Below, one piece after another: positions 19,486 through 62,599 of a DNA stretch of 64,000 nucleotides (position 1 is the first letter of the stretch; each line of letters begins with the position of its first letter). The DNA is from Triatoma infestans. Its lineage: Eukaryota > Arthropoda > Insecta > Hemiptera > Reduviidae. Below the pieces are notes generated by a model. That model did no database searches, was not told the DNA's origin, and saw only the letters and a list, made by a program, of their open reading frames with translations. The DNA lies in NCBI GenBank assembly GCA_011037195.1, contig JAAEAF010003085.1, positions 1-64,000 of the forward strand, written 5' to 3'. The position numbers and the translations under genes were made by a program.

Positions 19486-19790
19486 AATTTCAGAAAACTG
19501 AAAAAGAAAATCTGTTCAGAGTGGTCGCACTTCCGGTCAAATGATATTCTTCAAACTCAGAATGTTAATAGTATATTTAATTTTTATTATTATTATATAG
19601 TTATTAAAACTGTATAATATAGCCAAATAAAGAACTTTAGAAAAAAGTCTAACATCACAATCACCTTTAAGATAGTCGTAAAATGAATGTAATCAGTAAC
19701 ATAAAAGTGTTTGTTGTGGTGGTTGGTTCCGCAGAGCTGGAAAGCATCAGAGACACTTTCCGTGGTAGCCTGCTTCATTTTGTGGTCATC

Positions 19791-19820
19791 GACCGGTTTT
19801 TGGCGTTCGCCCATCTTCAG
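19791..19820 (-). ncRNA. Hammerhead motif, mutated (PH1 left arm)
   Basis: Minus strand: CTGAAGA is intact and GGCG..CGCC stem remnants remain. The GAAA block reads AAAA because of changes at the stem II/core junction, so the catalytic G is gone. Expected to be inactive. Confidence 0.65.
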
Positions 19821-19940
19821 GATGCGTTTTTTCAGACAGTGTGACAACACAGACTTGCACAGAGCACTAGTGAAAGAGTTAGTGTGAAACTAAGTTGCTC
19901 TGTGCGAGTCTATGTTGTCACACTGTCTGAAAAACGCATC

Positions 19941-19970
19941 CTGATGATGGGCGAACGCCCGAAACCGGTC
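19941..19970 (+). ncRNA. Minimal hammerhead ribozyme motif (PH1 right arm)
   Basis: CTGATGA (the textbook core), an extra T, stem II GGGC-GAAC-GCCC, GAAAC, then CGGTC with GTC as the predicted cleavage triplet. Stem III is the self-complementary ACCGGT with no loop, which suits intermolecular pairing. It is the most canonical core in the window. Confidence 0.75.
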
Positions 19971-20739
19971 GATGACCACAAAATGAAGCAGGCTACCACG
20001 GAAAATGTCTCTGAAACATAAAAGTGTGTTTGAAATAAAAGTGATAGGGCAAAATATATGTAACGGATATATAAAGTTCAAAGAAAATTGTTGAAAGCCC
20101 TCACGGAAAAAAACGCATAAAAAGAGAAAAAAATCCATTCAAAAGTAAAGTGCTACTTCCGGCTGACCGATTTTAATAGAAAATGAAAATAGAAGAATGT
20201 AAAAAACGTTACTATGGAACATAAACTGAATATTTCATTTTTGAAATTCCTGTGATTTTTTTCCCCCATTTTTTAATTACGCTGACTTATGCAAGTCAAT
20301 TTCTAAAACTCATTTTTACTCTAGGAACCTCAAAGTGTGTATTTCCGGTGAAAATTCTCATCGAAAATTTGAAACGATGTTTCTTGCTAAGAAAAGGAGA
20401 AACTGACTATTTTTCATGAAATGGAAACATTTGTAAAATGTTTGCTAAGGCCAAATTAGCGACTATTTCTACTGGTTTTAATCATCATAATCATCATAAT
20501 CGTGCGCCTCTTCTACCGCCTTGGCGGTGTGAGGCCCCCTTCCTGGTTTTAATACTAAAAAAAAAAACAAACAAAAAAAACAGACGTTTCAACCTAATGA
20601 GGCCATTAAATATTGAAAACAGTAATTACATTTGCAACATAACCTTATTTATAATACATATTTGTATCTCTAGAGGTTATATGAGCAATCTGGTTTACTT
20701 ATTTACTAACTAAACTAACATAACACAGGACAGGTTTGA

Positions 20740-21062
20740 GGACCTGGTGGGGGTAGTCACTTGTTTAACATAGGGAGGACTTCTAGTCCCAATTGTCGGA
20801 ACTGCGACGGAGTCAGGGAAACGGTGTACCACTACTTATGTCAGTGACCCCGTTTCGCTGGTATTAGGTTTCGCGTATTTGGAAGGACACCACTCTCGCA
20901 GGATTGCCTGGGCGAGTTGGAGTTTAGAGATATCTTGGGAAATTGCAGACTAACCGGTAAGCTACCGAGGGAGATCAATTAAGGGAATATGGGGGGTATC
21001 GGGGGGATAAAAGCCACTAGGCTTAGGTCCCACGCCATTAGGCACCCGGAATAATAATAATA
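20740..21062 (+). pseudogene. Non-LTR retrotransposon C-terminal Cys-His tail with (TAA)n end
   Basis: The frame from ~20752 to the TAA at 20980 gives HLFNIGRTSSPNCRNCDGV, then RETVYHYLCQ, then a stop where the family has its next residue, then PRF..IRFRVFG. This is the CxxC..ETxxHLLxxCP zinc-knuckle tail that follows the RNase H domain in I/R1/Jockey-type elements. An in-frame TGA marks it as dead. After a ~70-base 3' untranslated part the copy ends in an AAT/TAA repeat, as is typical of some non-LTR clades. The rest is 5'-truncated. Confidence 0.8.
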
Positions 21063-21239
21063 AACATAACATAAATTCAATTGCGATTTTTCAAAGATAA
21101 ACAAAAATTATATATATTTATATTTGCAATATTCCCATTGAATTGATGGACTATTGCTCAAGTAACCTCCAGAGATACAAATATATATTTTAACAATTAA
21201 TAAGGTTATGTTGCAAATGTAATTACTCTATTACTACTA

Positions 21240-21270
21240 CTGAGGATGGCCTCATTAGGCCGAAACGTGC
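21240..21270 (+). ncRNA. Hammerhead-like motif (family 4 right arm)
   Basis: CTGAGGA, an extra T, stem II GGCC-TCATTA-GGCC, then GAAAC followed by GTG rather than GTC. A G at the cleavage position normally blocks activity, so this is probably a decayed member. The mirror motif at 20583-20610 keeps GAAACGTC but has lost CTGANGA. Confidence 0.55.
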
Positions 21271-22089
21271 AATTTTTTTAGTGTAAAAACCGGAAGAAAT
21301 AGGCACCAATTTGTCACTAATGCAAGAAACCAAAATTTGTGGAATATATTTATTTCTTTTTTAAGAAAGAAAACTGTCAAATTTGTCTGTGAAATATGAT
21401 ATAAAATTTGATTCTTAATTTAAATATTTCGAAGGCACAATTACATAATATAAAATCATCATGTGATGGTAGGTATTGTTAAAAAAACAGAAAAAGCTTC
21501 TCTCCATTATAAAATCAATTGTACAATTATAATTAATTCATAACCACAAAATTTTATTAAAAGTTTAATTTGTATAAATTAAAAAAAATAAAGCCTCCAC
21601 GATCCAGAACGGTTGTAAATGATATACAATAAATTCATTCGATGAAATGTACCTACTATATTTATGAAAATTTAATTTTTTTTTTGCATTGATCAAAAAT
21701 CGATGACATGTGGTTTAAAACATCGCTTAGCAGCTCAAAGAAGTATATTTTCTTCTTGATTTAACAATAAAAATCATTCTCATTTCATATCGATTTCGAC
21801 AGATCCAACAAAAAACAAAAGAGGTATTTTCTATGTAAAAACAAATCAATTAAATGAAATAAATAAATTAGCACAAATACAATATTCACATCCGATTTCA
21901 AAATAGGTAGACGGTAATTAGGAAGCGTAAGGTTATATAAGAGCAGAGGCAAACGAGGAAGACGTCCATTATGACTAGGCAAGGCGAAGAACGAAACTGG
22001 TGTAAGACTGTCAGAACCTGGGAGAGGCTACACAAAGTTCCACCTGCTCGCACTATTTAGGCGATCTGGGATATCCAGGTGATATATAT

Positions 22090-22459
22090 GTAACCGGCAA
22101 AGTATGAAATTCAGGCATTCTATAGAATGCCTAGGCATTTCGTATAATACCATGCGTGGTTTATACTCAGATACCAGATTGTATTTCTTATGATAAATTT
22201 TGTGTATTTGAAAAATATTCTTTTAAATATTCCTATTATTCATTTGTTAGCTTGGGGAAATTTTATTGTAGTGTTTCAGTATAATAAATCATGATATTCC
22301 AAATGGTGTTTCAATAGTTCTGGTACTTTAAGTAAAATAATTTAACTTTTAAATGATTACTATTAAAATATATTTTGAAATCGGGATGTAATAAAATAAA
22401 TGGGGGGTCGTCCGGGATGAATTTCATATTCTGCCTGAATTTCATACATTGCCGGTAAC
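22090..22459. mobile_element. Short TIR element (MITE), unassigned superfamily
   Basis: The ends are inverted copies of GTAACCGGCAAAGTATGAAA (one mismatch) and the match continues through TTCAGGCA. The flanks ATATATAT and ATATACAT would be an 8-bp target duplication with one mismatch, though they are low-complexity. The element is 370 bases long with no coding. Just inside the left end lies a small perfect palindrome, GCATTCTATAGAATGC. Confidence 0.7.
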
Positions 22460-22734
22460 ATATACATAACCTAATTATTGACGATTATCCTTAAGATATA
22501 CATTAATACATATTTTTTTTTTTTAAGACTATTTTTAACTGTGTATAATTGTGAATTTGGCAAAGTTAATTTGAGATATTCTGATGAACCTAACATCTCT
22601 TTTTACATATTCACTGGTGACAGACACAACAATTCTCCCCGCCAAATCTTGATCCTATCAAAATAACCAGTATTTCTGGTATTTGAAAATTAAAGTAAAC
22701 ATAGGCAAAACGGATCCTCTAATTTAACTCAAGA

Positions 22735-23190
22735 GAATATCCATTCTTCCAGCTGATCATGTGCGTTATGTTGGACTATTCGTGGACAAGAAACTGAACT
22801 GGAACCCTTCATACACGGCTCAAACGCTCTGAGGTGAAAACAATTTTCAGACTTCTTTCCAAACTATTGCATCAAATTGTCACTCTCCAACAAAACACTC
22901 GTTCACAGTGCTGACCAATACAGATTTTTGGACTTAAACTGAAGCGTATCCAAATTAACCAATTCATAATCATTTTCACCTTATTAATAATATTCTCTTC
23001 TACGTATCCCATCCTAAATCCAAACAGTAATATTGTGGCAAAAACGCGGGATAAACAAAATTCACAATAAACTAAAATTCTTTTGCCGAAGCTCTCAGCC
23101 TCATATTCCCTCCCCGGTAATCCTCAACAACGCTTAAAAAACGTCGTTGGTTTCAGGACCTTAAAATATCTCTCTAATAAAGAGGCACAG
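22735..23190 (+). pseudogene. Jockey-type LINE, reverse-transcriptase C-terminal remnant
   Basis: One frame gives YVGLFVDKKLNWNP (22767-22808), matching the 'YLGV.lD..L.W..H' block just after the reverse-transcriptase palm. Downstream frames give KTIFRLLSKLLHQIVTLSNK and then a decayed thumb region. There are several stops and frame changes. Endonuclease and the main reverse-transcriptase motifs are absent. Confidence 0.65.
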
Positions 23191-25849: not shown

Positions 25850-26225
25850 ACATGCTCAAAACACATAAACAATGATAATCACTGAACGGCAAGAGAGAGA
25901 ACACAAGCCCGACCGAGAGAAAGCAGACTCTCTCTGGTACTCTCTGACTTAAGCAGGCTAGAGTGGAAGAACCTGTATATAAGCCAGTGAGAATCTACCT
26001 AAAGGGATATATATATATATCTATCTATCAGATTCAACCATATACATCGCATCGTGTCATATCTCTACTCTCACCTTATTCTGTAAAATCATTACAAGTC
26101 CAGGGCAGTCAGTGTAAACTTATAGCTATATTATAACAGTGTCTTCATATCTCGTCTAATTAATCAAACCTAATTTCTCTCCTCATCAACTCCATTATAT
26201 CACACTTGTTAGCTAATAGGTTCAT
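25850..26225 (+). promoter_or_regulatory. Possible LTR or promoter remnant with TATA box
   Basis: A purine/pyrimidine-rich upstream part precedes a good TATA sequence (gtatataagcc, near 25975). Downstream lies a run resembling an untranslated leader. The arrangement recalls the U3/R part of an LTR, but I could not find a partner copy or clear TG...CA ends. Confidence 0.2.
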
Positions 26226-26269
26226 CTCTTCATTTATTTTTTGCACTATGAGAAAATGAAATACGACTT

Positions 26270-27706: not shown

Positions 27707-27762
27707 GTGTTGGATAACATCCGGTATTTTATCCGTCGTAGCCTGCATATTGGTTTTTTCCT

Positions 27763-27792
27763 GACCGGTTTCGGATATTCATCCATTGTCAG
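27763..27792 (-). ncRNA. Hammerhead motif, mutated (family 2a left arm)
   Basis: Minus strand: CTGACAA instead of CTGANGA (the conserved G is A), stem II GGAT-GAAT-ATCC, GAAAC, CGGTC. Loss of the core G should abolish activity. Confidence 0.65.
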
Positions 27793-27966
27793 AGCAAATT
27801 CACCAAGTTCGTATAGAGAGTTCACTTCAACGAAATGTTTCTGTAGATTTACACGAGTTGGTTGTATATCAACAAGTGATATACAGTTGATATACAACCA
27901 AAAAGTGTGAGTGTACAGAAACATTTCGTTGAAGTGAACTCTCTACACGAACTTGGTGAATTTGCT

Positions 27967-27996
27967 CTGACGATGGATGAATATCCGAAACCGGTC
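27967..27996 (+). ncRNA. Minimal hammerhead ribozyme motif (family 2a right arm)
   Basis: CTGACGA, an extra T, stem II GGAT-GAAT-ATCC, GAAAC and CGGTC. All core bases are present. Stem III is ACCGGT, as in family 1, although stem II and the surrounding arm differ. Confidence 0.72.
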
Positions 27997-28589
27997 AGGA
28001 ACAAAACCAATATGCATGTTAGGACGGATAAAATACCGTAAATTAATAGTGTTCTCTTTCATAAATGTGAATAAATTCTTCCATAATTTCTCTGTGACCC
28101 TTCCTAAAATCAACCGACATAATGATAAAATAATATGGACTCGAAAAGTAAAACAAACGCTTGGCTCTGACGTGCACGAGACTGACACAGAGGTTGCACA
28201 AGTCTGCTACACACGTTCAGTTGAACATGAACAAGATGGCGCGCACAAGTATGCAGTATGAAAGTTTAAACATTTTCTGACTTGTGCAAGTTTTTCATAC
28301 AAACGATTAAGTATGCCTGTACAAGCCGACGACTGCGCATGTATACCGTCAAGTGTGCAGTGTAGCCAGCTTTACAACTCACTGTCCAGTGATGGACAAT
28401 TTCTCTAATTAGAGAAAAACTGCTTAGATGGAGGCTGGCAGTGCACTGATAAAGTTTCGGGAGGTACAATATATCTTTTCGGTCGCAGTGCTCAAAAACA
28501 ATTCTACAGTTGGCAGAACGCCGCTAATCAGGACTTGAGGGAACTTAGTCCTCTTTTCTATTTTATTTGGCTAATTCCGAAAATAAATT

Positions 28590-28838: not shown

Positions 28839-28841
<3 letters not shown>

Positions 28842-28872: not shown

Positions 28873-28874
<2 letters not shown>

Positions 28875-30899: not shown

Positions 30900-31924
30900 T
30901 AATGTTGCACTTCCGTTTAGTCGATTTCCTCACAGTGATCCCCACAGTGATAGTCAAACTTGAACTTTCTGTGATATTTCGTTTTTGAACTTTTGTTGTT
31001 CATATAATCATTCACAGAGATTATTTTCTAAAAACCACCTTACCAGACTCAGGGACCCTAAAAACGTGTATTTCCGGTAAAAAACTCAATACGGAAAATT
31101 GTGACACAATCACAATTACCAGGAATATGAGAATGTAAAATAAAACTAAAGATAAAATCCAAACAATAGAAATTTTTCTTTCCTTATTAATTTTATATTT
31201 TTTTGAAGAAACAGCTGATTTTTAAAAATAATATAGTGTAAATGATAAAAAGATGATTATGTGTTGGAGAAAGAAGTGAGGCCCGTGCACGGTTACTACT
31301 TTTATGTCTTTGAAAACTAAAAACAAAACAAAAAAAAGATAGTTAAACAATGGAAACACGAACTTGATTAATTCCATGTTCGTACCAATAAGGAGGTATT
31401 TATAAGGAAGATACGACATGGGTAGCTAAGTAAGTGAGCGCGGGTGTCGCTACACGCTATGACTCAATTTCTAAGAAAACTTTAATATTAAAAAAGATAC
31501 AATAATCATAGTATAATAGTCCATTTATTCGTATTTTTATGGCTTTATAAACAAAACAACTCCTAAAAAAAAAAAATAGACATTTTACTCCAGACACGAA
31601 ATTTCTCTTACACAATTCCAAATTAATCGATAACTACCTAGATTTAATCGATAAATCCTCTTCTAACCGAAAAAAAATGTGTATGCGATTATTCGACTGG
31701 CCTTAAAATTTAAAAGAAAAAAAGTTTCATCCAATAGTGATTACAATTTACTGTGTCTCTAGTCCTCAGTAAAATTTTCAACAGCTGCCTGAAAGTTAGC
31801 ACTAACGCAATAGTCAAATTATTGAAAAAATCCGGTGTGGAACAGACAGAAATCCATTAAATACAAATTATTAATAAATTTCCTGTAAAACTGCAACATT
31901 TACAATCTTTGTTTAAAAAAAATA

Positions 31925-32897
31925 TGTTGTGAAACACTCACACAACTTTCTCTTACTCCAGTTCTCAAAATTGAAATTGATAAATTTTATAGTTTTTGTA
32001 CCAAATTTAATGAAATTCGACCAAAACTGAAAAAACTGTTCAGTAAAAGCGCACTCCTGCTTTACTAATTTTCTTCAAACTTAGAAATTTGGCCCTCTAT
32101 TTATTTCTAATTAATTCTGTTTGGATGATAGAATTGTATAATCAACTATGATACCACTTTAGAGCAAAACATTCCAACCCTCCCCTAAAAGTGCCCTCAA
32201 ATGAATTTTCCCAGAGAAAAGTTTTAAACAAAAGTTATAGATCATTGTATGTTTAGTTTATATATATGAAGTTTCAAGAAAATAGCGAAAAAGTGAAAAA
32301 ATAATCATTTAGTAAAGTGGTAAAGTAAACACACTTCCGGTCATCCGATTTTCAAACTCGGAATTTAAAACAACATATTTATTTCTAATTAACATTAATT
32401 ATATGACAAAATTGTCTAATAAACGGAAATAGCACTTCAGATGAAAACCTAATCATTCCTCTCACTTAAAAGTTCCCTAAAATGAATTTTCCCAGAGAAA
32501 TGTTTCGAATAAAAGTTGTAGCAGTTTGCATGGGTAGTTGATATTACAAGTTCAAAGAAAATTGTCGGAGCCATTTTTGAGAAAATCGCAAAAAAGTAAA
32601 AAAAAACTAACTAGTAAAGTGGTACTTCCGGTTGAGGAATTTTGACAGATAACGTACTGTGAGACTCCATGGTGATACCTAAACGGAATATCAAGTTTCA
32701 ACTTTCTACGGTTTTTCGTCTTTGAGCTATGCTTTTCACATACACACACACACACACACACATACACACACAGGCCATTTGCTAAAAACACTTTTTTGGA
32801 CTCAAGGGGATCTCAAAACGGATATTTCCGGTGAAAACTGGATATCGAAAATTTGGCACTATTACAATACTTCCTCTTACTAGGAGCAAGAGAAAGT
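31925..32897 (+). repeat. Family A interspersed repeat, near full length (copy A2)
   Basis: Collinear with A1 from GTTGTGAAACACTCACAC to CTAGGAGCAAGAGAAAGTA. Module starts lie at ~32054 (cgcactcctgctt), 32333 (acacttccggtcatcc) and 32623 (gtacttccggttgagg). A (CA)n tract lies at ~32741-32772. No coding domain is present; frames on the minus strand through the CA tract are artefacts. Confidence 0.85.
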
Positions 32898-35090
32898 AAA
32901 AAAAGAGCGTAGGGGTTATACTTGTATACCTGAGCAAACTTGTGGGAAGCAACAGTGTTTAAACCAACAAAGCCTGCAGTAGTTCAAATGCCATACCTCA
33001 CCCTCCAAAATCGATGTAAAATCACTTTTTTCCGGAAAAACGTATCAAAAATTAAACTGTAACGTTTATATATGCAAGAAAATCACACTGTACTTTAGAG
33101 GAAATCATAACGGTACGGTTTCCTCAGAAAACCACCCCTAAAAAATAAATTTTCTCTAGGAAAATATTTCAGATAAAAAGTGATAGGTATTTGTAGGCGT
33201 AGATGTATTCGAAGTTTAAGGAAAAGCTTCATGTTGGAACCATTTTCAAGAAAATCTTGAAAAAAAAAACTTGAAGCAAAAATGGATTCACGAAAAATCC
33301 ATAAAAGAAATTTCGAATGAAACTTTGTGTGCTTTCCGCCCTGCCAACACACATACAATTATTTAACCACAATTTTGCTGTACAAAATTTGTAAAATAAT
33401 CAGGGCATAAAATATACATTTATACCTGCATTCAAATACCGAAGCGTAGAAAAAAAAATGTAACTAAAAAATACTAACTTCGAAAAATAAAGTGTGTGAT
33501 AAGTAAAGTATTTGAGACTCAGGAACGCAGAAGCAAAGTTATGCCATAAACGGGAGAATGGACGCAGTGAGCAAGTAAAGAAGACAACTTTGAAGATGAT
33601 CATCAGCTACGAAGATGAAGATAGAATGACAAAAAAAAGTACATGTCCTTTTGGTCCATAGTAAGAGGATACCAAAGATTCCCACAAAAGGGGAATTTCC
33701 TAATTAAATTTATTATTACTTTTTTTTTTCTAACTTGAAGCAATAAAGTAAAAAGAAAATTATAAATAAAATTCCATAATAAAATAGAACATAAAATACG
33801 CAGTTGGGAAAAAATTCAATGATAAAGAAGACCCACGATAATATGTTTTGACAAATCATGAATGGCTTCATTGTAGTTTAGCGTGCACTAGACAGGGTGC
33901 ATTTGCATATTTCTACTACTGGAATACTAGTTTGTAAATATACACCACTACTTAGTAGTATAAAAAAAAAAAGTAGTAAAATCCTAGTATAAACACTATT
34001 TTCATAGTAACAAAAAAGTAATCTTTAACTAACACAAATTTGTTACTATTTGAATTTTTTTATTTTATTTTAACAAATAGTAAGAATGTAGAATAGAATT
34101 TAAAGAGTTTTTAGTAAGAGGGTGTAATAAAAGTGTTCATAAAAAAAAGGATTCATTGCAACCCTTCCCATTTTTTGTTTGTTTGTTTTCTTTCTGTAAA
34201 CAGGACTACAAGAAAAAAAAGGGACAAAAAGAGAGAACAAGCAAGTTCCCAACCAATAAGGGACAAATGTAAATTTTCTACTAATATATCTCCATTAATG
34301 TCCCATAGGACATATATTGAGCCCTATTTTACATGACATAATCACTATAAAAAGTGTCCCTTTATTAGAATAAAAGAAACGAGAGAAAATAAAATGGGAA
34401 TGGCTTTTTTTTAAAAAAAAAAAAAAATATATATATAATAAAATGTAACCAATCCCTTCGGGGGATTTGAACCAGCCACCCGCTGACTGGACACATACAC
34501 ACATGATAGACAGATTTAAGTCTGACTGACAGGTTTCGTTAGAAATGTCTCAAAACAAGATCATACAATAGGTGAACGTAATGCAATACTATATATAAAA
34601 AAAATTAAAAAAAGAAGACGTGCAAAAAAACTTAAGAAAGGAAAGCTCAGTTTTTTGTTTCTCTTTTGGACGTGTATACGTTACATGTTTCCAGGAATAG
34701 GGCTCCCCCCCCCCCCCCGTGTTCACAGCTTAATACTACACTAGTAAAACATCGGCATGTATTATTAAATAAGCCATTAAATTGTATTTAAACGTATTTA
34801 ACCCCTTAATACATAAAAAATATATACATAAATGAGGATGAGTCTGTTACATAATATTTCACAGTATTTAAACAATAAGGATTCTTAACGGAATTCTTTG
34901 GAGGACCAAGGGTTTACTGAAAAAACTAGGAAGGAGTATTAGGGCGTCCTTATTAAGACATTTTTATTTACTTATTCAAAAGCCAAAGGAAAAACTTTCC
35001 CATAGAAGAAATGGATGAACTTCGACGAAACACGTGTTTCATGCACTCTATGGACCAGGACTGGCTGAGAAAAGCACAGAATTTTCCCAA
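32898..35090. other. Spacer with family A fragments and homopolymers
   Basis: Family-A-like phrases recur at 33000-33250 ('tttccggaaaaacgtatcaaa', 'aggaaaatatttcagataaaa'). A poly-C run of 16 lies near 34707-34722. A tRNA-like box B on the minus strand near 34455-34475 (GGTTCAAATCC) lacks a matching box A. No gene is supported. Confidence 0.4.
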
Positions 35091-44950: not shown

Positions 44951-44970
44951 ATACAATAACGAATGAAATT

Positions 44971-45159
44971 GTGGTGATTGGTTCCGCAGAGCTGGAAAGC
45001 ATTGAGCAAATTCAGTTTACACACTCTTGAGTAAACTGAATTTTGTCTGTGCAAGTCTGTGTTGTCACACTGTCTGAAAAACGCATCCTGAAGATGGGCA
45101 AACGCCCGAAACCGGTCGATGACCAGAAAATGAAGCAGCTACCACGGAAAATGGCACTG
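44971..45159 (+). mobile_element. Palindromic hammerhead element, family 1, left arm deleted (PH2)
   Basis: Flanked by the identical 12-mer ACGAATGAAATT (44959-44970 and 45160-45171). The head GTGGTGATTGGTTCCGCAGA is present. The left arm is cut after 'gctggaaagcat' and jumps to the centre ('gagcaaattcagtttacac'). The right arm is complete with its ribozyme but ends 'aaaatggcactg'. The preserved duplication shows the shortened form either inserted as such or was deleted later. Confidence 0.88.
45088..45117 (+). ncRNA. Minimal hammerhead ribozyme motif (PH2)
   Basis: CTGAAGA, an extra T, stem II GGGC-AAAC-GCCC, GAAAC, CGGTC. With the opposing arm gone, this transcript could not fold the ribozyme into a long hairpin. 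It is therefore the best placed of the copies to fold as a ribozyme, if transcribed. Confidence 0.72.
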
Positions 45160-45475
45160 ACGAATGAAATTATTTTTCCTCCTTCAGTTTCTAAAGTTAT
45201 AACTTTTTTTAATCACTGCAAAGTAAAAATAAAGAGTATCAAGGGACTCAGGAAACCGTAAAACATTTATTTCCAGAGAAAGGTGAACATCGAAAATTTG
45301 CAGTAAGAGAAAGGACAAAAGGTGAACATTTTATTCAAATGAGAAAGTATGTTTACGTGAAATAATTTTTTTTTAAACTGACCAATTTATTCATTTACCT
45401 CCTTTAAATTTAGCTTGTAGCCCTTCTTTATATGAATATGAGATGCGTTGTTTCATTTCTCTTGAAAAAGTTTTT

Positions 45476-45546: not shown

Positions 45547-46497
45547 CATGTTCGCTCTAATATTCGATAATATAAACACAAACACATATACAGAAAACAC
45601 TCCCTTTTACAAATGTAAAAACTTACCTAACAATTTTATAAAAACCATTGGTTTAACCACAGGTGTTTGTTGTTAGTTCTATATTTTATTAAATATTTAC
45701 AACTATTAAAAACTTTACCATTAATTTCCATTTTATATTTTAACATTAGCTCTCGTAACATGTAACCGATGGAAAGTTTATGTTCCTTTTTTATTGCATT
45801 GCCACATTGTTATCCACCCCATAGCATGAACATAACAAAAGAGTTTATTCATTATTACATGAATTAAGCTAATTAATTACCCAGTTATTATTGAACTTTC
45901 AATAAACCACTAAATCAACTTTAAAATTGCAAATTTTAATCAATTTTGTGGCAGCCATTTTACTTAGAACAGTTAATATTTACGGTAATATTTCAAATTT
46001 AATTACCCGAATCAATATCCTAAAACCAACCCATTACTATTCAAATATTTCAATCCACTTTATTTAATACAAACCAGATGAAAGCAATAAGAAACGTTTA
46101 TACTATTTTAGGGAACTCAATGCCCTATTTAAATAGTAATAAATTTCTGTAGCTTAGATCAACCATGTAAAAAGACTCAACCCCCCCCCCAGACCCATTA
46201 AATCTGGTGTAAAACACTCACATGTCCTTACTCTAATTAATACAATTTAATTAACAAGTTTTTCTTAAACATGCAATGTTTTCAATGTTTAGTAAAGCTG
46301 GGCATTTACTGGTCCGGGACTTGTGTGAAGCGCTCTCTGTCAGAATCAACAAAAGTTGTACAGTTTAAATTTAAACCTAACTGGACAAATTCGCAAAAAA
46401 CGTATCAAAAATAATTTGGGGGGAGAACGTTTCAAATAAAAGTGATACATGTTAATCTGGGCAGTAAAAAAATCCAAGTTTAAAAAAAAAAATTGTT

Positions 46498-46802
46498 TCA
46501 GAGACATTTTCCGTGGTAGCCTGCTTCATTTTGTGGCCATCGAACGGTTTTGAGGTTTGCCCATCTTCAAATACAGATAAAATCATCTTCAGTTAAAAAC
46601 ATCTTCATGTTGAAATACAGTTGAAAACACCAGTCAGTGTGTAAACAAAATTTGCTGTGTGCCTGTGTTGTCACACTGTCTGAAAAACGCATCCTGAAGA
46701 TGGGCGAACGCCCGAAACCGGTCGATGACCACAAAATGAAGCAGGCTACCAAGGAAAATGTCTCTGATGCTTTCCAGCTCTGCGGAACCAACCACCACAA
46801 CC
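46498..46802. mobile_element. Palindromic hammerhead element, family 1, reverse orientation (PH3)
   Basis: Target duplication AAAAAATTGTT (46487-46497 and 46803-46813). Here the headless arm end TCAGAGACATTTTCC is on the left and the head (complement of GGTTGTGGTGGTTGGTTCC) on the right. It is therefore inserted the other way round from PH1, PH2, PH4 and PH5. The left arm is diverged with an internal replacement ('aaatacagataaaatcatctt'); the right arm is well preserved. A 105-codon frame through the right arm is a repeat artefact. Confidence 0.88.
46694..46723 (+). ncRNA. Minimal hammerhead ribozyme motif (PH3 right arm)
   Basis: CTGAAGA, an extra T, stem II GGGC-GAAC-GCCC, GAAAC, CGGTC. 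All core bases are intact. The mirror copy in the left arm (about 46541-46570, minus) has TTGAAGA and TCAAAAC in place of the core and is broken. Confidence 0.73.
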
Positions 46803-47405
46803 AAAAAATTGTTATAGGCGTTTTCAAGAAAATTCCCCCCCCAAAAAAAGAACTCATTAAACGCAATTCTGAAAAGTCTTATTTCCGGGTTACCCCCATT
46901 TTATACAAATCTGGAATTTTAGCAATTCTTGTTAAGTATATTAATATTATATAGGTGGCAGAACTACGCGTTTATATTGCACTGTAGTGGTCCCTTAAAA
47001 AAAATGTATAACGCTAATGCTCTATCAGAACCCCGTAAAATTCAGTTTATACATAGTAAATATACAGAAGATAGATATGAAAGGTAGTCAGATAGTATAC
47101 AAAGTTTAAAAAAAAAAATAATCGTTGAAGCTGTTTTCAAGAAAATCGCGAAAAACTAGAAAGAAAGAATATTCAATAAATTCGCATTTCCGGTTGATAG
47201 ATTTTCCCCGAAAACTTTGTGCCACATGAGGCGTAGCACCAAGATTTATCATGTTTGAACTTCCTGTGATTTTATCCAGCATTCGCTAGAAAATTATTTT
47301 GTCTACTTTGGCGACCGACCTTGGACCAAGTATTTCCTCTGAAAACTCAATTTCAATAAATTGACCAAATCGCAATGCTTCCTCTATTACGAGGAGAAAA
47401 AGAAA

Positions 47406-49750: not shown

Positions 49751-49845
49751 AACTTCAACCCTTAATTGTTGTGATGGTTGGTTCCGCAGATCTGGAAAGC
49801 ATCAGAGACATTTTCCGTGGAAGCCTGCTTCATTTTGTGGTCATC

Positions 49846-49875
49846 GACCGGTTTCGGGCGTTCGCCCATCTTCAG
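49846..49875 (-). ncRNA. Minimal hammerhead ribozyme motif (PH4 left arm)
   Basis: Minus strand: CTGAAGA, an extra T, stem II GGGC-GAAC-GCCC, GAAAC, CGGTC, all intact. Confidence 0.73.
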
Positions 49876-50055
49876 GATGCGCTTTTCAGACAGTGTGCCA
49901 ACACAGACTCGTACAGAGACTTAGTTTCACACTAACTGAGGTGTATATTTAAAATATGTTTTAAAATATGTGTATGTTTTAAACATACACCTCAGTTAGT
50001 GTGAAACTAAGTCTCTGTACGAGTCTGTGTTGGCACACTGTCTGAAAAGCGCATC

Positions 50056-50085
50056 CTGAAGGTGGGCGAACGCCCGAAACCGGTC
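50056..50085 (+). ncRNA. Hammerhead motif with core change (PH4 right arm)
   Basis: CTGAAGG in place of CTGAAGA: the conserved last A is G. Stem II, GAAAC and CGGTC are intact. Activity is likely reduced or lost. The one-base difference from the mirror arm is among the few asymmetries of this palindrome. Confidence 0.65.
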
Positions 50086-50309
50086 GATGACCACAAAATG
50101 AAGCAGGCTTCCACGGAAAATGTCTCTGATTCAACCATTAAATTTACTAGAAACTAGGAATTATAATAAATTCAAGTGTCCTTAAAATTATTTCATAATT
50201 TAGTGATGCTAAATGATAGGTCAGAAAGATAAGCCTTACGTCATCTCAAGTCAACGGAATAATATCAAGTCAACGGAATATCTCGTAGCTGCATATTTTT
50301 GATATTTCT

Positions 50310-50339
50310 GACCGGTTTCGGATTTTCATCCATCGTCAT
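50310..50339 (-). ncRNA. Hammerhead motif, mutated (family 2b left arm)
   Basis: Minus strand: ATGACGA in place of CTGACGA (core C lost), stem II GGAT-GAAA-ATCC, GAAAC, CGGTC. Confidence 0.6.
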
Positions 50340-50368
50340 ATTAAGACTCTGTACTTGAAAGCCTTACC

Positions 50369-50398
50369 CTGACGATTGATGAAAATCCGAAACCGGTT
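50369..50398 (+). ncRNA. Hammerhead motif (family 2b right arm)
   Basis: CTGACGA core intact and GAAAC intact. Stem II has one broken pair (TGAT versus ATCC), and the cleavage triplet is GTT instead of GTC, which is permitted but usually slower. Confidence 0.6.
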
Positions 50399-50429
50399 AG
50401 GAACATCACAAACATGCATGCTACGACGC

Positions 50430-51955: not shown

Positions 51956-51959
51956 TAAA

Positions 51960-52215
51960 CTTCATGAACTCTTCATGAAATAGAGGAAAATACGAAACCG
52001 GTCATATTGGACTAGGGGACTTTTCAGTGCAGGACCAGCCTGCGGGCAGAATTTCGAGATTCTTTTCTGTGACAGCCTGCCTGAATTTGTGATCAACGAT
52101 CGGTTTCAGATGTTCATCTAACTTCTGGATTTCTGGGCAAACATAGCGATAACATTGATTGTATACGTCAAAATAAATTTTGAAACTGAGAGCTCTTGTT
52201 AGCAGTTCCACATTT
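51960..52215. mobile_element. Eroded family 1-like palindromic element (PH6)
   Basis: The minus strand from ~52140 to 52030 parallels family 1 word by word: a ribozyme-like region, 'gttgatcacaaattcaggcagg' and 'ctgtcacagaaaagaatctcg'. At the left, 'atacgaaaccggtcatattgg' (51987) is part of a plus-strand arm. The ribozyme region has CAGAAGT for CTGAAGA, but stem II is AGAT-GAAC-ATCT, fully paired with different bases from family 1. A distant or old relative. Confidence 0.55.
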
Positions 52216-54130: not shown

Positions 54131-55330
54131 TTTGTTTTTATTTTATTTGTTATTTTTCAAGTTTTTTTGTGATTTCTCTGAAAATGACTCGAATGGATGG
54201 ATTTCCTATAGATTTGTTATACTAAATACACATATTAAGGGGTAATACTTTTATTTAAAACACTATATCATCGGAAAATTGATTTTTCCAATCAGAAGAA
54301 ACTGGGACGTTTAAATTGCGGTATTCGATAGAATATAAAATTCCTATTACCGGTCAACTAAACTCTGAATACGAAAATGTTGTGTTAATGATACCGTATT
54401 TTTTGTTTTGTTTTTTGTTTTGTTTTTTTTAAATTCAAAAAAGCCGAATACAAACTGAACTATTTTTAACGACAATTTGGACACAGTTAAGTCCAAACTA
54501 AGTAAAAAATGAATATATGTGTACACCTACATATATATCACAAACTAAATCCATTTAAAGAAATTTATGATAGTTTGTAAGGTAATTTTTTTCCATGTTT
54601 ATTAATTTTTTTTCACATTATTAAATATAAAAAGGCAAACAAAAAGTAAATAAATAAATAAATAAATTTATAGTTTCTAAACAAATAAATTTTAAATGAT
54701 TTCATTTTATTATCAATTATTGTCAAAAAAGAAAAAAAAAAACATCAAACAGAACGAAGAAGAAGAACAGATACAATAATAAAAGAAGAAGAAATAAAAA
54801 AGAATATATATATATACAAATCCCCATAAATTGGATCGTAAAATGTAACCTTGAAACAATCTAAAATAATAAAAAGAAGTTGACATAATTCTTTCTCTTT
54901 CTACCAATCATAGAAGAAGAGATAGTTTAGCCAAAGCGTTTCTCTATTTTATTATTATTACTATAGTTTTATTTAATTTTTTTTTTTTTTTAATAAAAAA
55001 ATTAAAAATAAATATTTAAAAATCGTAAAAATAAAATACGAGAATAAAAAAAAGATTTTTTTTATCATTTTTTTTTTTTAATTAATTTTTATATGTTTTA
55101 CAATTTTCTTATCAAAAAATTTTGCAAGAGAATGATGATTATCTCCCATTCTTATTAGCTAACCATTCCTGGTATCTATTTATTTTAGGATAAACAAACA
55201 GAAGAAGAAATAAATTTCAAATAAAAAGTTAAATTAATGACAAAATAAAAAAAAAAAAAAAACAATATTTCTTACATTATTCCAATAGCTAAATCGATAA
55301 ACAACAGATATTGTGTTTTCAATATAAAAA
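54131..55330. other. AT-rich, low-complexity spacer
   Basis: Very long A/T-rich stretch with (AAT)n-like and A-run repeats and no supported features. Confidence 0.5.
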
Positions 55331-55333
55331 AAA

Positions 55334-56349
55334 TCTGGTGTAAAACACTCACACAACTTTCTCTTACTCTAGTTCTCAAAATTATAATTGACAAAAATTT
55401 TATAGTTTGTGTATCAAATTTAATGAAATTCGTCGAAAACTAAAAAGAAAACTGTTCAGTAAAAGCCCACTTTCGGTTTATTAATTTTCTTGCAACTCGG
55501 ATTTTTGGCCCTCTATTATTTATTTCTAATTAATTTTGTTTGGAGATAGAATTGTATAATCAACTACATGATAGCATTTTAGAGAAAAACATAATCCCAC
55601 ACAACTCCCTTACTTAAAAGTGTCCTTGAATGAATTTTTCCAGAGAAAAGTTTTAAATAAAAGTTATAGATCATTTTATGTTTAGTTTATATAAGAAGTT
55701 TCAAGAAAATCGTCGTAGTCATTTTTGAGAAAATCGCGAAAAAGAAAAAAAAAAATCATTTAGTAAAGTGGTAAAGTAAACGCACTTCCGGTTATCCGAT
55801 TTTTTCAAATTCGGAATTTCAACAACATATTTTATTCCAATTAACAGTATTTAGATGACAGAATTGTCTTATAAACTGAAATAGCACTATAGATGAAAAC
55901 CTAACCCCACCCTTCCCCCAAAAGTGCCCTTAAATAAATTTTCCCACAGAAATGTTTCAAATAAAAGTTGTAGCACTTTGTATGTGTAGTTGATATACGT
56001 ATCAAGTTTGAAGAAAATCGTCGGAGCCATTGCTGAGAAAATCGCAAAAAAGTATAAAAATTAACTACTAAAGTGGTACTTCCGGTTGAGGAATATTGAC
56101 AGATAACGTACTGACAGAACCTATGGTGATACTAAACGGAATATCAAGTTTCAACTTTCTACGGTTTTTCGTCTTTGAGCTATGCTTTTCACATAAATAC
56201 ACACACACATTCACACACACACAGACCATTGCTAAAAACCACTTTTTTGGACTCAGGGGGACCTCAAAACGGATATTACCGGTGAAAACTCGATATCAAA
56301 AATTTGACACGATTACAGTACTTCCTCTTACTAGTAGTAAGAGAAAGTA
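55334..56349 (+). repeat. Family A interspersed repeat, near full length (copy A3)
   Basis: Collinear with A1 and A2. It opens TCTGGTGTAAAACACTCAC. Modules begin at ~55470 (cccactttcggttt), 55784 (gcacttccggttatcc) and 56077 (gtacttccggttgagg). There is a CA-rich tract near 56196-56225. It ends CTTCCTCTTACTAGTAGTAAGAGAAAGTA, where the two halves pair as a hairpin. The strong similarity among A1-A3 suggests fairly recent spread. Confidence 0.88.
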
Positions 56350-56997
56350 AAAATGTTATTACTTGGGTAAGCATACGAAGTTTTAAACATACATTTAAAA
56401 AAACAATGAACAACAAACTGAATGTTTAGAAAAAAAAAAAACAATTTTCTTATTGTAAAGAAAAATAGAAGTTTTTTTTTTAAATTTTCTTTTTCAAATC
56501 ACGTTTCCTGAAAACAGAAAGAGTTTTACTGTAAACTATAAAGTAAAATGGGGTGATTCGGTAATATTACTTTTCTTAACGGTTTTTAACGGTTAAGACA
56601 TTTTTATTGTCTTTTTTTTTATTGCTTTAAATGGAAGTATTAAGATCGTGTCAAATTTTTCAAATTGTGTTTTAACCAGACAACATACTTGTTTTGAGCT
56701 CCCATGAGTAGGAAAAAAGCCATTTTAAGCAATATTCAGGGTGTGTGTAAAATAGAATTGTTATAAAGACAACAAATCCGAAAAATCCGGAGAATGCTTT
56801 AAACTTTAATATTCGTTTTGGTATCACCAGGAAAATTGAATTTCTTGGTCATAATCCGTTATCCATTATGTGTTTTAGGCTATTAGTAAAGGCTATTTAT
56901 TTTTTCAGCTTCGTTATTTTCAACATATGGTCCATGATATTCTTTAAACTTATGTACTAATTATACGCATAACTAACTTTATATGTTATCAATTTTA

Positions 56998-57583: not shown

Positions 57584-58094
57584 AAGATCAAAAAAAAAGA
57601 AGCCTCTATACATAAACAGTTTTCCTGAAAAGTTTATATTTTGGCGGGTTCTAGACATGCAGTAAGTAATCTCTAGCTTGTAAAGTGTAAAAGTATCGGA
57701 ATAAGGTATAAGCCAATGGAAATGAGTGTTTGTATCGTTTGCCGGAGTTTGCCAGCGGATACGCTAAACCTAATAATTTGCAATTCCAACCGTATTTGCT
57801 GGGCCTAAGTTCAGTGGGTGGTTTGGATGGTGTCAAGGTTAGCGATATTTATTTCATTAGACACTGGGAAAGAACTCTGAATATGTAGATAGTATAATTT
57901 TCCATACCGAAGTTTACATCGATGCTGCATTTTGCCAAGTGAGTCTGGCATAATTAAAAGTCCATGAGAATGAATATGTCCAAATGAATTCTCCTGGGTT
58001 AAAGTGTTAGATTAGATTAGATTCTGTAAGATTTGGTTATTAGCTTACGCCCTTGCGACCACTATGGGTCTAATGTGGTACCAACAAGTTAGAC

Positions 58095-58262
58095 TACCAT
58101 AGCCTGTCCGGTCTGTTTAATTAGACTTAGAACTCTGGAGAAAGGGAGACTCCTGGATGAAGCTTGAAGGCACTCACAAGTTAGAGTACACTTTCCCATC
58201 CTGTCTGTTTAATTAGACTTTGGAATCAGGAGAAAGACACCTGGATGGAACTTGAAGGCGTG
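58095..58262. repeat. Two-copy tandem repeat (~90 bp unit)
   Basis: 'cctgtc(cgg)tctgtttaattagact' followed by 'ggagaaag...ctcctggatg.a.cttgaaggc' occurs twice in a row, with small indels between the copies. Confidence 0.6.
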
Positions 58263-58887
58263 AGTTTCTTCTCCACAAAGAGGAGAAATCTTAGCCACAT
58301 AAGTCTCTCATATTGATACAGTAAGTGCAAAACCTATACATGCTATTCGTTGTCAGGCTTATATGATATATGTGCTGGCTTAAAAAGTTAATCAATTAAC
58401 TTCTTCTTGGCAATTTCATTACAGAGCATGGCTTCTCAAAAGGCATGATTTTGCATACCATTTTGCGCGAGATGAACTTTCACACTGGGCTAATGTGAGA
58501 CCATATCATTAATAATAATAATAATGGGCTATAAACAACTATTGGAAATGATATTCATTTTATTCAAAATTATAATTCATTTGAATTCATCAAATTTTCG
58601 AGCAGATTTGAACTAGAGAAAAAAAGGTAGTTATCTTTTCAGGATTTAATGAAATGGAAAATGCCAGCAATGTCGTGATCTAAACCCAGTAGGATCGATA
58701 AGTCTGATCAAGCTAAATGTAAACAATAATAAATAAAATCTCCAAGGATAAGTACCAGTCAAACAAGTAAATAGAAATAAAGAGTTCAATATGATCAGCC
58801 TTATAAACATTAGCAGGGTCTTATTTACATTCAACAGTCCAGACACTAATGCGACTTTAATAAGTTTCCAAATTGTTTATTAACCCC

Positions 58888-58918
<31 letters not shown>

Positions 58919-59810
58919 GGGGGACATTATTTATCATTTACGTCACTGAACCCCCCCACTACTAGAAGCTTTTAGAGATAATTGAGTAAATTGTCCCCGG
59001 TAAACCTTGGAAATTCTAGCACAATTTTATTATTTATGTTTCAATAACTTATTCATTTCTTGCTTCAACAATTATTATACTTTTCAAATTCATTGTAGAT
59101 TAAAATGGAACAATAGTAATATTTAATATTTTCATCTCTAGAGACTTCAAAAGAAAGAAGAGCTCATGAAAGTTTCAAGTTGGAAAAAGGAGGGCATTAA
59201 TTTAATTACTGTATTTCGTCTGGGATAGAAAAGAAATTACAAAAAAAGATAACTATTTTAATTCTAAAGTAATTGCAAATATTACCTCAAAGTCCCCCTT
59301 GTTTAGAACAAATCGCTCTTCGTTCAGTGGGGAAAAAGGAAAAACTAAGAAAAAACATCAACTTAAGGCAATTTTCGAAATTCTATTTAATAATTTTCTC
59401 CAAAAACTGGAGTTTGTAATAAGTTTAGGTTATCTTTAATATCGGAGCTGGAGTCCCAACTATAAGCATCAATCCACCCCATCTTAAGCAAAAGAACGAA
59501 AGGGGAAAACTGCTCAATATAAAAAGGGCAGCCTCCTTCCTTCATTATCTTCTATCGCTCTGTCGTTCTAAGACCTTATCCACTATATACTATTATTGCA
59601 GAATACGCAAATTACTTGTTAGCATGGAATTAAAACAATATGAGTTAATCTTTACTAAATTCAGTTTCTTTTTAAATGGCATCAGTTCACACTACTAGCC
59701 AGAGAATGTTTTCTTCATAGTTCTAAGAAAGTGTTTTCTTCATAGGTCCTAAAAGCTTAGGGTAAGACTACTAATGAAGTGGACCAGTTCTTCGAAAGCT
59801 ATTCTATTCT
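58263..59810. other. Spacer, unclassified
   Basis: A (TA)n tract lies near 58890 and a short (AAT)n near 58515. Nothing else is recognised. Confidence 0.4.
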
Positions 59811-59814
59811 TCAG

Positions 59815-60200
59815 TATACTAGGGTACGTTATGTTTACCTGCAACAGATTTCTTAAATTTTTCAAGAGCAGGTTTCTGATGCGTGTATATTTGGAGCACG
59901 TCATGACAATGTGTTCAATTCTTCTGGACAGTTACAAGTTGTACAAAGGGGGGATATTTCTTTACCTATTTTATGTAGATATTTCTTACATATGAAATGA
60001 TTCGGGGTCTACTGAAATAGTGACAAATAGTTTAGAAAATGAACCATCGCGAAACCAAGGTTTATGACCTGCTACAGGGACTAACAATTTATAAAATTGA
60101 CCCTTAGGAGACTCTGTGTAAGTCCTTTGCCACGTTTCGTTTATTTTCCTTTTAATATAGGCTTTAAAAATCAGAATGAGGCAGAGACACGATAAATTCA
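59815..60200 (-). pseudogene. Non-LTR retrotransposon C-terminal remnant (RNase H-downstream region)
   Basis: The minus strand gives KAYIKRKINETWQRTY, then GQFYKLLVPVAGHKPWF, then KLFVTI. After a stop, PPLCTTCNCPEELNTLS follows. This matches the pattern 'W...W......G..l..i.p.....PWF.....', ending in a CxxC..E..H-like block. The reading frame breaks near 59990. Clade not assigned. Confidence 0.55.
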
Positions 60201-60209
60201 TTTAATAAA

Positions 60210-60760
60210 CTCTTAGTAAGAGAAAGTATTTATTACGATCATCAAACTGTGGAAACTGTGAAACTAGACATACATGTTTTGTGGTCCCCTGAGTACGAAA
60301 AAAGTTTTAGCAAATGGTCTGTGTGTGTGTGTGTGTGTGTGTGTGTATAAAAAAAGATCTCAGAAACGAAACACTGCAAGAAGCTCAAACTTGGTGTTCC
60401 ATTTAGGTACACTACCACACCGACATATGACAAGGTTTCGGACAAAATCCATCAACTGAAAGTGCAACTTACTGACTGCTTTTCTTCAGTTTTATGCGAG
60501 TTCCTTTGAACTTAGTGTACTATAAATGTGCACATAAGTAGTGCACTTTTATTTGGAGTCCTTCAGAAGGAACAGTGACATTAAGCTTTCCTCTAATGTA
60601 CCACTTCAATAAATCTACGGTTCTCTAAAAGCTTATAATATTAAAATACGATAGAAGCAATGCTACAACTACAAATTAAACGTATCACTTTTATTTGAAA
60701 CATCTGACCGAAAAAAAAGCAGCGATTTTAAATATACAGAATTTGTTTCGTTAAATTTCA
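60210..60760 (-). repeat. Family A copy, minus orientation
   Basis: Contains 'cttagtaagagaaagtatttattacgatcat', then 'catgttttgtggtcccctgagtacg', a (TG)n run (60320-60347) at the family's usual microsatellite place, and 'aggtttcggacaaaatccatcaac'. Confidence 0.7.
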
Positions 60761-60944
60761 AATGTTTTTTGTTTTCAAATTTGTTTGCGCGGTGAATAGA
60801 GTAAATCTAATTATATTGTTATTACTTGTCTGGGTACAGACATTCCAGCCTCATCCATCACCTCTGTATTAATTTATGTTCAGACACATGAGTAATATTT
60901 TTTTAAAGAAAATTTGTCATTTTATATATATATACATATTAGAT

Positions 60945-61400
60945 TAGAAATGGGGGAGGCGAGCTCATTCCACTGCGACCTGCAAGTCGAGGTCTATTGT
61001 GGATCCCCTTGAATTGTAGCAAAACCACCAGCCTTGCCCTCCTAATCAATCCTAGCAAAGCTGAGAGCGGCTCCGTCATGAAGCTTCTAGCTTCAGGATT
61101 GCCTGTCCCCAATTGAAGAAACCTAATCCACGCCAGGCCGTGAATGCGCGCCAGGGGTTTCTTCTTCTATCTTGCAGAATCGGCATACCGCACTATCCGC
61201 AAGTTGTAGATGGTGCATGTGTCGGTTCAGCCTACAATGCCCTGTTAGTAGACCCACAATTAGCCTTATATCCCTTCGGGTATGGCTCAGTAGATCTCTG
61301 GTAAATTTAGTCAAACGCCTTTTGATGAAGAGCTTTGCCTGCCTCTGTCCTGGTGTTCTCTCCCACCAATGCAGACGCTGTTCTTCTATCTAATCCCTGA
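60945..61400 (-). pseudogene. Non-LTR retrotransposon C-terminus and 3' end
   Basis: An open stretch of ~84 residues on the minus strand (61395-61125) includes LHWWERTPGQRQAKLF, then DLLSHTRRDIRLIVGLLTGH, then CRLNRHMHHLQLADS and CRFCKIEEETPGAH. This is the 'll.LsR...R..vGLLTGHC.L..HL' and 'CRFC.eEEET' tail of RNase H-bearing LINEs. The frame is then lost. The 3' untranslated part, down to ~60950, ends with 'cttgcaggtcgcagtggaatgag', which resembles the SINE tail at 9.5 and 15.0 kb. The copy is 5'-truncated. Confidence 0.8.
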
Positions 61401-61429
61401 TAGAAGTCTGAATGAGGCTCCTGGACATA

Positions 61430-61580
61430 TATATAATAAAGGAAAGTCCTGTGAGTATTTCAGACGACCGGATATTTTTTTTTTTGTTTCGTATTCATCG
61501 AATGATCTCAAGACATGAATTTCCAGAGGAAACTCAATTTAGTAAAATTCGCTCGATTACAATACTTCCTCTTATAGCAA
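61430..61580 (+). repeat. Family A fragment (start joined to end)
   Basis: 'gaaagtcctgtgagtatttcagacgaccgg', then 'catgaatttccagaggaaactcaattt' and 'cgctcgattacaatacttcctctta'. An internally deleted copy. Confidence 0.6.
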
Positions 61581-62230
61581 TCAGTCAGAAAAAAAAAACG
61601 CTTAATTTTCGTGTCAACCCGGGAAACTGAATTTTATTTTATATTTTGAAATCCTCTTTTTATTTGTTTTATAAAAATCTCTGAATTAGAATTATATTAT
61701 TATCCAACTGATCCCATTATTGCCATAAAAATCTTCCTTGTAGATCAAATAAAAATTAAAAATTAAAAAATATACACTATAGGCCTATTAGAAATTATAA
61801 TATTTTGAAAGATTTTTGTATAAAAAAAAAAGAAAAAAGAAAAAAAAGAAAAAGAAAAGTTATAAACTGTAAAGAGTATGCGATCCTATAATATTATTAA
61901 TAAAAATGTACATAGAGCATATTTTAGTGTTTCACTGTTTTGGCAGAATGCCTTTACATCTTCTACTTCTCAGGCTGGATTCCCCAGTGTGTAACATAAA
62001 CTATAAAATATTTTCTAGAAAGAGGGAAAACAGAAGGGGTGAGTGGTAAAGAGAGAGAATAAAGGAGAGAGAGAGAGAGAGAGAAAACTAGAGATGAAGA
62101 AACATTACGGTCATTTACATGGTTTGAAAGCTGTAATTATACTCGTATATATACCTATATAAAACAAGGTTTCAACCAAACAAAAATAAATAATATGCTC
62201 ATAATTAATTTTAGCATAAATTTTTCAGCT
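61581..62230. other. AT-rich spacer with (GA)n
   Basis: A- and GA-rich runs (62066-62084) and no gene. Confidence 0.45.
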
Positions 62231-62240
62231 TTATTAAATG

Positions 62241-62559
62241 GTGTGGTGGTTGGTTCCGCAGAGCTGGAAAGCATCAGAGAGACATTTTCCGTGGTACCTG
62301 CTTCATTTTGTGGTCATCGACCGGTTTCACGGCGTATTCGCCCAGCCGTCAGGATGCGTTTTTCAGACGTGTTGAACAGAGCTGTGCACCAGAGCAAACG
62401 TAGTTTCCACAAATGCAGCTGAGTCAGTGTGTACACTAAGTTTTGCTCTGTGCACTTCTGTGTTTCACACTTCTGAAACGCATCCTGAAGATGGTCGAAC
62501 TCCCGAACCACCGGCGATGGACCACAAAACAAAGCAGCTACCACGGAAAATGTCTCTGA
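62241..62559. mobile_element. Palindromic hammerhead element, family 1, diverged (PH5)
   Basis: Head GTGTGGTGGTTGGTTCCGCA at the left and terminal AATGTCTCTGA at the right. The target duplication is short or imperfect (TTATTAAATG versus TTATTAAGTTG). Both arms have point changes and one-base indels. Left ribozyme (minus, ~62319-62354): CTGACGG..GTGAAACC. Right ribozyme (62485-62515): CTGAAGA intact but GAACCAC for GAAACC. Both are probably inactive. Confidence 0.8.
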
Positions 62560-62599
62560 TTATTAAGTTGTTTTTTGTTTTTTCGGTTTATCCCTAATT

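Follow-up and report, generated by a model that had tools for sequence, protein, structure and literature searches.

The window analysed here comprises 64,000 nucleotides of Triatoma infestans DNA (contig JAAEAF010003085.1 of assembly GCA_011037195.1, positions 1 to 64,000). It contains five palindromic insertions, PH1 to PH5. Each is built of a head, an arm, a short centre and an inverted arm, and re-examination confirmed the positions and layout given in a first-pass annotation. They are insertions of an abundant GIY-YIG-type Penelope-like retroelement (PLE), and hold only its pseudo-long terminal repeat (pLTR) part. Target-site duplications (TSDs) are exact in PH1, PH2 and PH3, with 13, 12 and 11 bp, respectively. 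The TSD of PH4 is 12 bp with one mismatch. That of PH5 is weak, with 7 bp exact inside a weak longer match. These TSDs had been described in the same terms, and one copy had been noted as reversed, which is PH3. Two details are revised. The fixed end had been called exact in three copies; it does exist, and AATGTCTCTGA is exact in four (PH1, PH3, PH4 and PH5), with AATGGCACTGA in PH2. The head is one-sided as described, and starts about 5 bases before the GTGGTGG near which its beginning had been placed, at TTGTT or a variant.

Table 1. Coordinates of the palindromic insertions and related features in the window.
Feature	Position	Strand	Description
PH1 TSD, left	19698..19710		AACATAAAAGTGT, exact repeat at 20015-20027
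PH1 TSD, right	20015..20027		
PH1 insertion	19711..20014	+	tail/head ~19711-19746; left antisense arm to ~19864; centre; right sense arm ~19879-20014
PH1 minimal hammerhead over open reading frame (ORF) start	19941..19970	+	CTGATGA-T-stem II-GAAACCGGTC
PH2 TSD, left	44959..44970		ACGAATGAAATT, exact repeat at 45160-45171
PH2 insertion	44971..45160	+	left arm skips from tail to leader; right arm ends in AATGGCACTGA
PH2 hammerhead motif	45088..45117	+	
PH3 TSD	46487..46497		AAAAAATTGTT, exact repeat at 46803-46813
PH3 insertion, reversed	46498..46802	-	tail 46768-46802; + reading extends arm ORF ...ENVSDAFQLCGTNHHN
PH3 hammerhead motif, tail-bearing arm	46694..46723	+	
PH4 TSD, left	49754..49765		one mismatch against 50130-50141
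PH4 insertion, young	49766..50129	+	arms ~99% alike, reading past the putative cap site
PH4 hammerhead motif, left arm	49846..49875	-	sense on the - strand
Degenerate piece of the same PH arm	52063..52130		~75% identity
PH5 insertion	62231..62566	+	body ~62241-62559; weak duplication TTATTAA 62231-62237 / 62560-62566

The arms carry a minimal hammerhead of the Penelope type, a putative ribozyme. The motif is CTGANGA-T-GGGCG AA CGCCC-GAAACCGGTC^GATG, with a self-complementary stem III (ACCGGT). A scan for hammerhead-like motifs gave six matches in the window, whereas 20 block shuffles gave no match. Four of the six are in PH arms, and two are in a separate palindrome at 15,247-15,662. Rfam gave no hammerhead match, at the gathering score or at E <= 5, so the assignment rests on motif anatomy. 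Sub-threshold Rfam microRNA matches in the palindromes were taken as hairpin artefacts. The hammerhead is the same across three subfamily consensuses save one gap, with 14 of 44 arms unclassified. According to parts of two reports (PMC7229834, PMC7761336), PLEs contain minimal hammerheads that lack a proper helix III and may function as dimers. The Penelope-type hammerhead of the first-pass annotation is retained, as a minimal dimer-type motif in the pLTR at the ORF start. Its picture of two opposed hammerheads, one in each arm, holds in a narrower form. On each strand one arm has the sense form and the other the antisense, and the motif is intact in 4 of the 10 PH arms. The hammerheads would be opposed because one RNA region was copied from both sides.

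The ORF opens inside stem II (ATG GGC GAA CGC CCG AAA CCG GTC..., MGERPKPV...), and is read along the hammerhead sense. The overlap with the hammerhead is 24 nt, counted from the A of the ATG. When reverse-complemented, the head keeps the frame of the arm ORF (MGERPKPVDDHKMKQATTENVSDAFQLCGTNHHN; read from the PH1 and PH3 sequences). It extends that frame and is therefore the next ~36 nt of the ORF, not a foreign leader. The head is the optional "tail" already described for PLEs, and the arms are PLE pLTRs in inverted form, composed of the 5' leader and the first codons.

The element is abundant in the genome. In the 941 Mb searched, where the window lies inside contig C2996, the head 15-mer has 10,542 matches (1 for the reversed control) and the end 15-mer has 23,761 (2 for the control). 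The end followed by the first tail bases has 9,217 exact matches, and its control none. The true numbers are probably higher, since only 3 of the 5 window copies match the head 15-mer exactly. We fetched 48 loci, labelled L001 onward, for the first 50 of 100 listed head sites; picked by the head, they form a head-biased sample. The 28-nt string spanning the hammerhead and ORF start had no exact match in viral contigs (one of eight scans), and plasmid records gave no match by distant blastn.

Copies with coding sequence identify the parent. L041 contains the head, the reverse transcriptase (RT) motif RYVDDLFLIL, the GIY-YIG sequence NIYVGQTGR, a 3' region, the pLTR and the shared right end, with a 12-bp TSD. 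L026 has the same plan starting downstream of the RT motif, and a 13-bp TSD. The GIY-YIG Pfam model scores 23.7 bits in L041 (cut-off 22.6) and 21.7 bits, just under, in L026. A 189-aa query from L026 matched four proteins, the best of which has 844 aa and 53% identity over 83% of the query; this homologue, P0001, passes RVT_1. Weak sub-threshold Pfam matches of four PLE fragments (Rimk_N, DUF2023, DUF3797) were taken as chance. By our own reading, against a reference that does not span the whole ORF, some coding sequence is present in 7 of the 50 sampled copies (L013, L017, L025, L026, L036, L041 and L043). RT with GIY-YIG, an often-inverted pLTR with an optional tail of 30-40 bp at one inverted pLTR, variable short TSDs and a minimal hammerhead are the features of endonuclease-positive (EN+) PLEs, and all were found. 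The first-pass annotation had suggested looking for a full PLE RT with terminal repeats matching the arms. L041 and L026 supply this in part, sharing ends and pLTR around PLE coding sequence in copies that are not intact full elements.

The ends are mostly fixed in the sampled copies. We mapped ends in 55 rows, composed of the 50 fetched and 5 window copies, and obtained the right end in 44. It stops at 0 to +7 of TCTCTGA, without a tail, in 38 of the 44. The six deviant ends are L046 twice (one double-tailed element), L021 and L028+315 (artefacts), L002 (chance extension) and L007 (10 nt early). A TSD score of at least 8 was found in 33 of 40 testable rows, compared with 1.1% of 7,791 shuffled pairings. 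These TSDs are 8-15 bp long, with 28 of the 33 within 11-14 bp, and contain 76% A+T. Fixed ends and variable TSDs in many copies, and PLE coding copies with the same ends, agree with the retroelement and target-primed insertion proposed in the first-pass annotation. Inverted arms with flanking duplications would also be expected of a foldback DNA transposon or a miniature inverted-repeat transposable element (MITE) with long inverted repeats. That origin is scarcely credible here. The one-sided tail means that the ends are not mirror images, neither TSD length nor centre is constant, and the arms are PLE leader and ORF start continuous with PLE coding sequence.

The interior of the insertions is variable. 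The distance from head to end is 87-394 nt in compact copies and 2,949 nt in L041. The centres of 29 printed copies and an additional set are all different by eye. The lengths of left and right arms differ by more than 20 nt in 22 of 44 rows, a few of them artefact rows. Because each copy read has its own centre and truncations, the sampled copies appear to have arisen separately from the parent PLE rather than by the copying of a palindromic master. The first-pass annotation had proposed a separate family resembling short interspersed elements (SINEs), with an undescribed plan. A palindromic master would then be transcribed and copied whole by PLE enzymes. The high copy number with constant ends would suit such a family, as would the lack of coding sequence in most sampled copies (7 of 50 have some) and the fact that a few of the G-G pairs described below have gaps of the same length. 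Against it are the variable head-to-end distances and differing centres, the independent truncation of arms, and the fact that coding PLE copies share these ends; the copies examined lack the single conserved body, copied whole, that defines SINEs. The supposedly undescribed plan is also that of PLEs, as reported in parts of PMC3846280 and PMC11167929. We dropped the separate family, which is very improbable. ARAGORN, with bacterial settings, found no tRNA gene in the window; A and B boxes were not scanned.

L014 and L047 (head at 800, minus orientation) have ~130 and ~750 nt, respectively, of reference-unrelated DNA between the arms. The TSD of L047 is 14 bp and exact, and that of L014 is 12 bp with one mismatch. 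The foreign DNA was probably captured during insertion.

The inner ends of the arms point to a putative RNA 5' end. They were mapped on references taken from long copies, with a span of 400 nt. Among 95 arms, 29 end within 5 nt of the A in TC/AGT (the slash marks the putative start), 44 inside and 22 upstream. End values of "+4" fit a subfamily leader without four bases (TC/AGTGTG compared with TC/AGTTAGTGTG), and thus denote the same site. From its sequence, TC/AGT is a putative transcription start of the PLE mRNA. It resembles the initiator, a motif of arthropod promoters.

An extra base is often found at this site. In the strict set, 25 of 51 arms read through with TC before AGT. The other 26 have G in 16, A in 4, T in 3 and C in 3, and the G is found on both sides (left, 8 of 11 arms; right, 8 of 15). 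At other sites, G is found in 7 of 39 arm ends (Fisher P 4e-4 compared with the cap site). The strict set is diluted by a few misaligned sites; a looser count that includes some neighbouring sites gave 22 G, 6 T, 2 C and 2 A (n=32). The template has C before AGT, which makes the G an addition. An extra base of this kind is best known to arise when the cap guanosine is copied. The alternative is that the RT added it without a template. By either route, the cDNA ran off the RNA 5' end. The string GAGTTAGTGTGAAACTAAG has 830 matches genome-wide and none for the control. Its first 100 places include 15 opposed pairs with 6-44 nt between the G's, plus two ~240 nt apart.

The tail is mostly found at one end. 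For a test unbiased by the head, we used position lists of the end motif in contigs C1-C15. The first 100 places contain 22 inward pairs within 3 kb, 56 single places, and 3 same-strand neighbours 1.2-2.1 kb apart. At the single places, the partner is presumably absent, mutated or more distant. Among the 22 palindromes, matched by eye with the end-plus-tail list, a tail marks just one end in 20, both ends in none and neither end in 2 (C8:205821, C9:255887). When 20 tails are dealt randomly over 44 ends, the probability of no double-tailed pair is 1.4e-4. In the first 100 places of the end-plus-tail list, which reach C54, the only double-tailed element is C25:79531/79586 (L046), with C41:264441/265966 a possible second.

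The two arms of a copy are on average more alike than arms of different copies. In 22 copies with both arms long enough, mean divergence is 0.075 within a copy and 0.114 between copies, and none of 5,000 shuffles was as low. In 6 of the 22, no other arm is closer than the partner. Both arms thus tend to derive from the same or a similar source. This likeness would also follow from self-priming, in which a strand, for example from an antisense PLE transcript (PMC3846280, in part), snaps back at a palindrome and copies itself. Some centres, such as those of PH4 and L018, are palindromic by eye, as such folding would require. On the other hand, the arms often end at different points (L003, L027, L035, L026). 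Each of the two arms can end at the cap site on its own and bear its own extra G there; in L012, L030 and L034 both arms have the G. The one-ended tail and the two subfamilies joined in L002 are further points against a strand that copies itself, and we consider self-priming unlikely.

We propose instead a twin-primed insertion, with a probability of roughly 0.8: each of the two cut target strands would prime cDNA synthesis on capped PLE mRNA of sense orientation, and the two cDNAs would then be joined. The mRNA would start at the initiator-like TC/AGT in the pLTR. The PLE endonuclease would cut AT-rich DNA with a stagger; the duplications and AT content are observed, and the enzyme is the presumed agent. 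The two target 3' ends would each prime RT within the first ~35 codons of the sense RNA. The distal start would give the tail or head, and the proximal start, ~36 nt upstream, would give ...AATGTCTCTGA. These two positions are proposed as RT starts by homology to the anole PLE (PMC11167929, in part). Both cDNAs would extend toward the RNA 5' end, many ending at the putative cap site, often with an untemplated G. Their joining with variable filler would leave the arms as inverted repeats, and the duplication would mostly be 11-14 bp long. With RT starts ~35 codons into the ORF, a monomeric mRNA would return only its leader. Coding copies would need a transcript reading through from an upstream tandem unit. 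In L041, L026, L025 and L017 the sequence continues beyond the cap site and includes 3' region and ORF of such an upstream unit.

A number of observations weigh against this proposal. The parent is known from copies with broken frames: none of those read was an intact full-length PLE, and no single intact ORF with both domains was seen among them. RVT_1 on the short L041 RT fragment is below the cut-off (12.7 compared with 29.6 bits). The putative transcription start was assigned by motif, and most arms stop elsewhere, inside or upstream of it. The extra-G test uses 26 arms from a head-chosen sample. Cap copying could be mimicked if the RT added an untemplated C on reaching a blunt template end, although this too would mean run-off. 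Three of the 15 G-G pairs share a 33-nt gap and 2 share a 13-nt gap, and some could share centres. Exact head matches alone find the tail in 10 of the 22 palindromes and none in 12, so the count of 20 needs the list matched by eye; even then, 2 of the 22 show no tail. L046 (L046:4003-4138) is an exception to the one-tail pattern, with tails at both ends and arms that meet near the ORF start. In 7 of the 22 copies, the partner is less similar than over 30% of the other arms, with PH5 and L011 the worst. L002 joins a subfamily-A arm to a subfamily-B arm, consistent with two RNAs or a template switch; it was left out of the 22-copy set because its right end was mis-mapped.

There is about an even chance that this asymmetric twin is the standard PLE reaction. 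A dimeric complex would cut both strands, and each would prime cDNA on sense mRNA with a cap; the distal start would serve one strand and the proximal start the other. If so, leader-only palindromes are the normal product of monomeric mRNA, and gene copying requires tandem read-through RNA. The same reaction would explain at once why PLEs tend to occur in tandem, why their pLTRs are inverted with a tail on one side, and why non-coding palindromes are so abundant. The more than 10,000 head sites provide thousands of natural end products, whose sequences directly display RT starts, the RNA 5' end and the joint between the cDNAs. Sense versus antisense priming, and one versus two priming events, become testable by counting. 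Annotators should treat palindromes of this type as products of PLEs and not as new families of SINEs or MITEs.

Other repeats are present in the window. A second PLE-like family is found at 27,722-28,038 and 50,283-50,426, with a hammerhead-like core CTGACGA...GAAACCGGTC. By our own reading, its ORF start MDEYPKPV resembles MGERPKPV. Of its matches in the fetched loci and the window, the four copies read by eye (window 27,722; L021; L045 twice) all have the tail at one end only, and one has an exact 13-bp TSD. The palindrome at 15,247-15,662 (region 15183-15673) belongs to a third hammerhead palindrome family. Its arms are 94-96% alike and both contain the hammerhead motif (GAAACGTC), with a palindromic ACGT stem III. 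It has a one-sided head of ~48 nt and a 16-bp TSD, AACTAGGTATAGTTTA. Three direct repeats of ~1 kb (10899-11916, 31914-32902 and 55326-56361) are 83-86% alike, contain shorter internal repeats, and are an unrelated dispersed repeat.

PLEs, inverted pLTRs, tails and hammerheads are already known. In our searches of the open-access literature, we recognised no report of a cap-derived base, or of a one-of-each end rule, for PLEs. The comparisons that follow refer to parts of the cited papers. PMC3846280 describes the inverted pLTR, one-sided 31-bp tail and TSDs of Adineta vaga PLEs, and PMC11167929 describes the PLE tail and hammerhead. The former leaves the origin of the inverted terminal repeats with a one-sided tail unresolved, stating that "further experiments are required", and the latter leaves later insertion steps to be validated.

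The metazoan retrozymes with type I hammerheads (PMC7229834) are, like the PH copies, small non-coding repeats with weak-stem-III hammerheads. They are direct tandem repeats that form RNA circles, whereas the arms here are inverted and continuous with PLE coding sequence. A retrozyme was rejected, as the 100 listed arm ends form 22 inward pairs compared with the 3 same-strand neighbours.

The Adineta vaga PLEs, Pen2a_Av and others (PMC3846280), are much closer. Their pLTR contains the first ORF codons, and an inverted pLTR completes the insert. The 31-bp one-sided tail extends the ORF, palindromes occur at inverted junctions, and a few insertions of unrelated DNA lie between pLTRs. Their TSDs are 8-10 bp, whereas those here are mostly 11-14 bp, and their copies are very few compared with the 10,542 head 15-mers here. 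The authors favoured self-priming, perhaps with antisense RNA; the arm ends and the extra G here favour dual sense priming.

The Poseidon PLE PAc of Anolis carolinensis (PMC11167929) resembles the parent element in its two internal RT starts, ~110 bp into the ORF with the tail between them. It is also similar in its AT-rich targets, and the PAc data include cleavage and extension of both target strands in vitro. There, RT starts showed no apparent strand difference in vitro, whereas in the genomic copies here the tail is mostly confined to one end, as though each end had a start site of its own.

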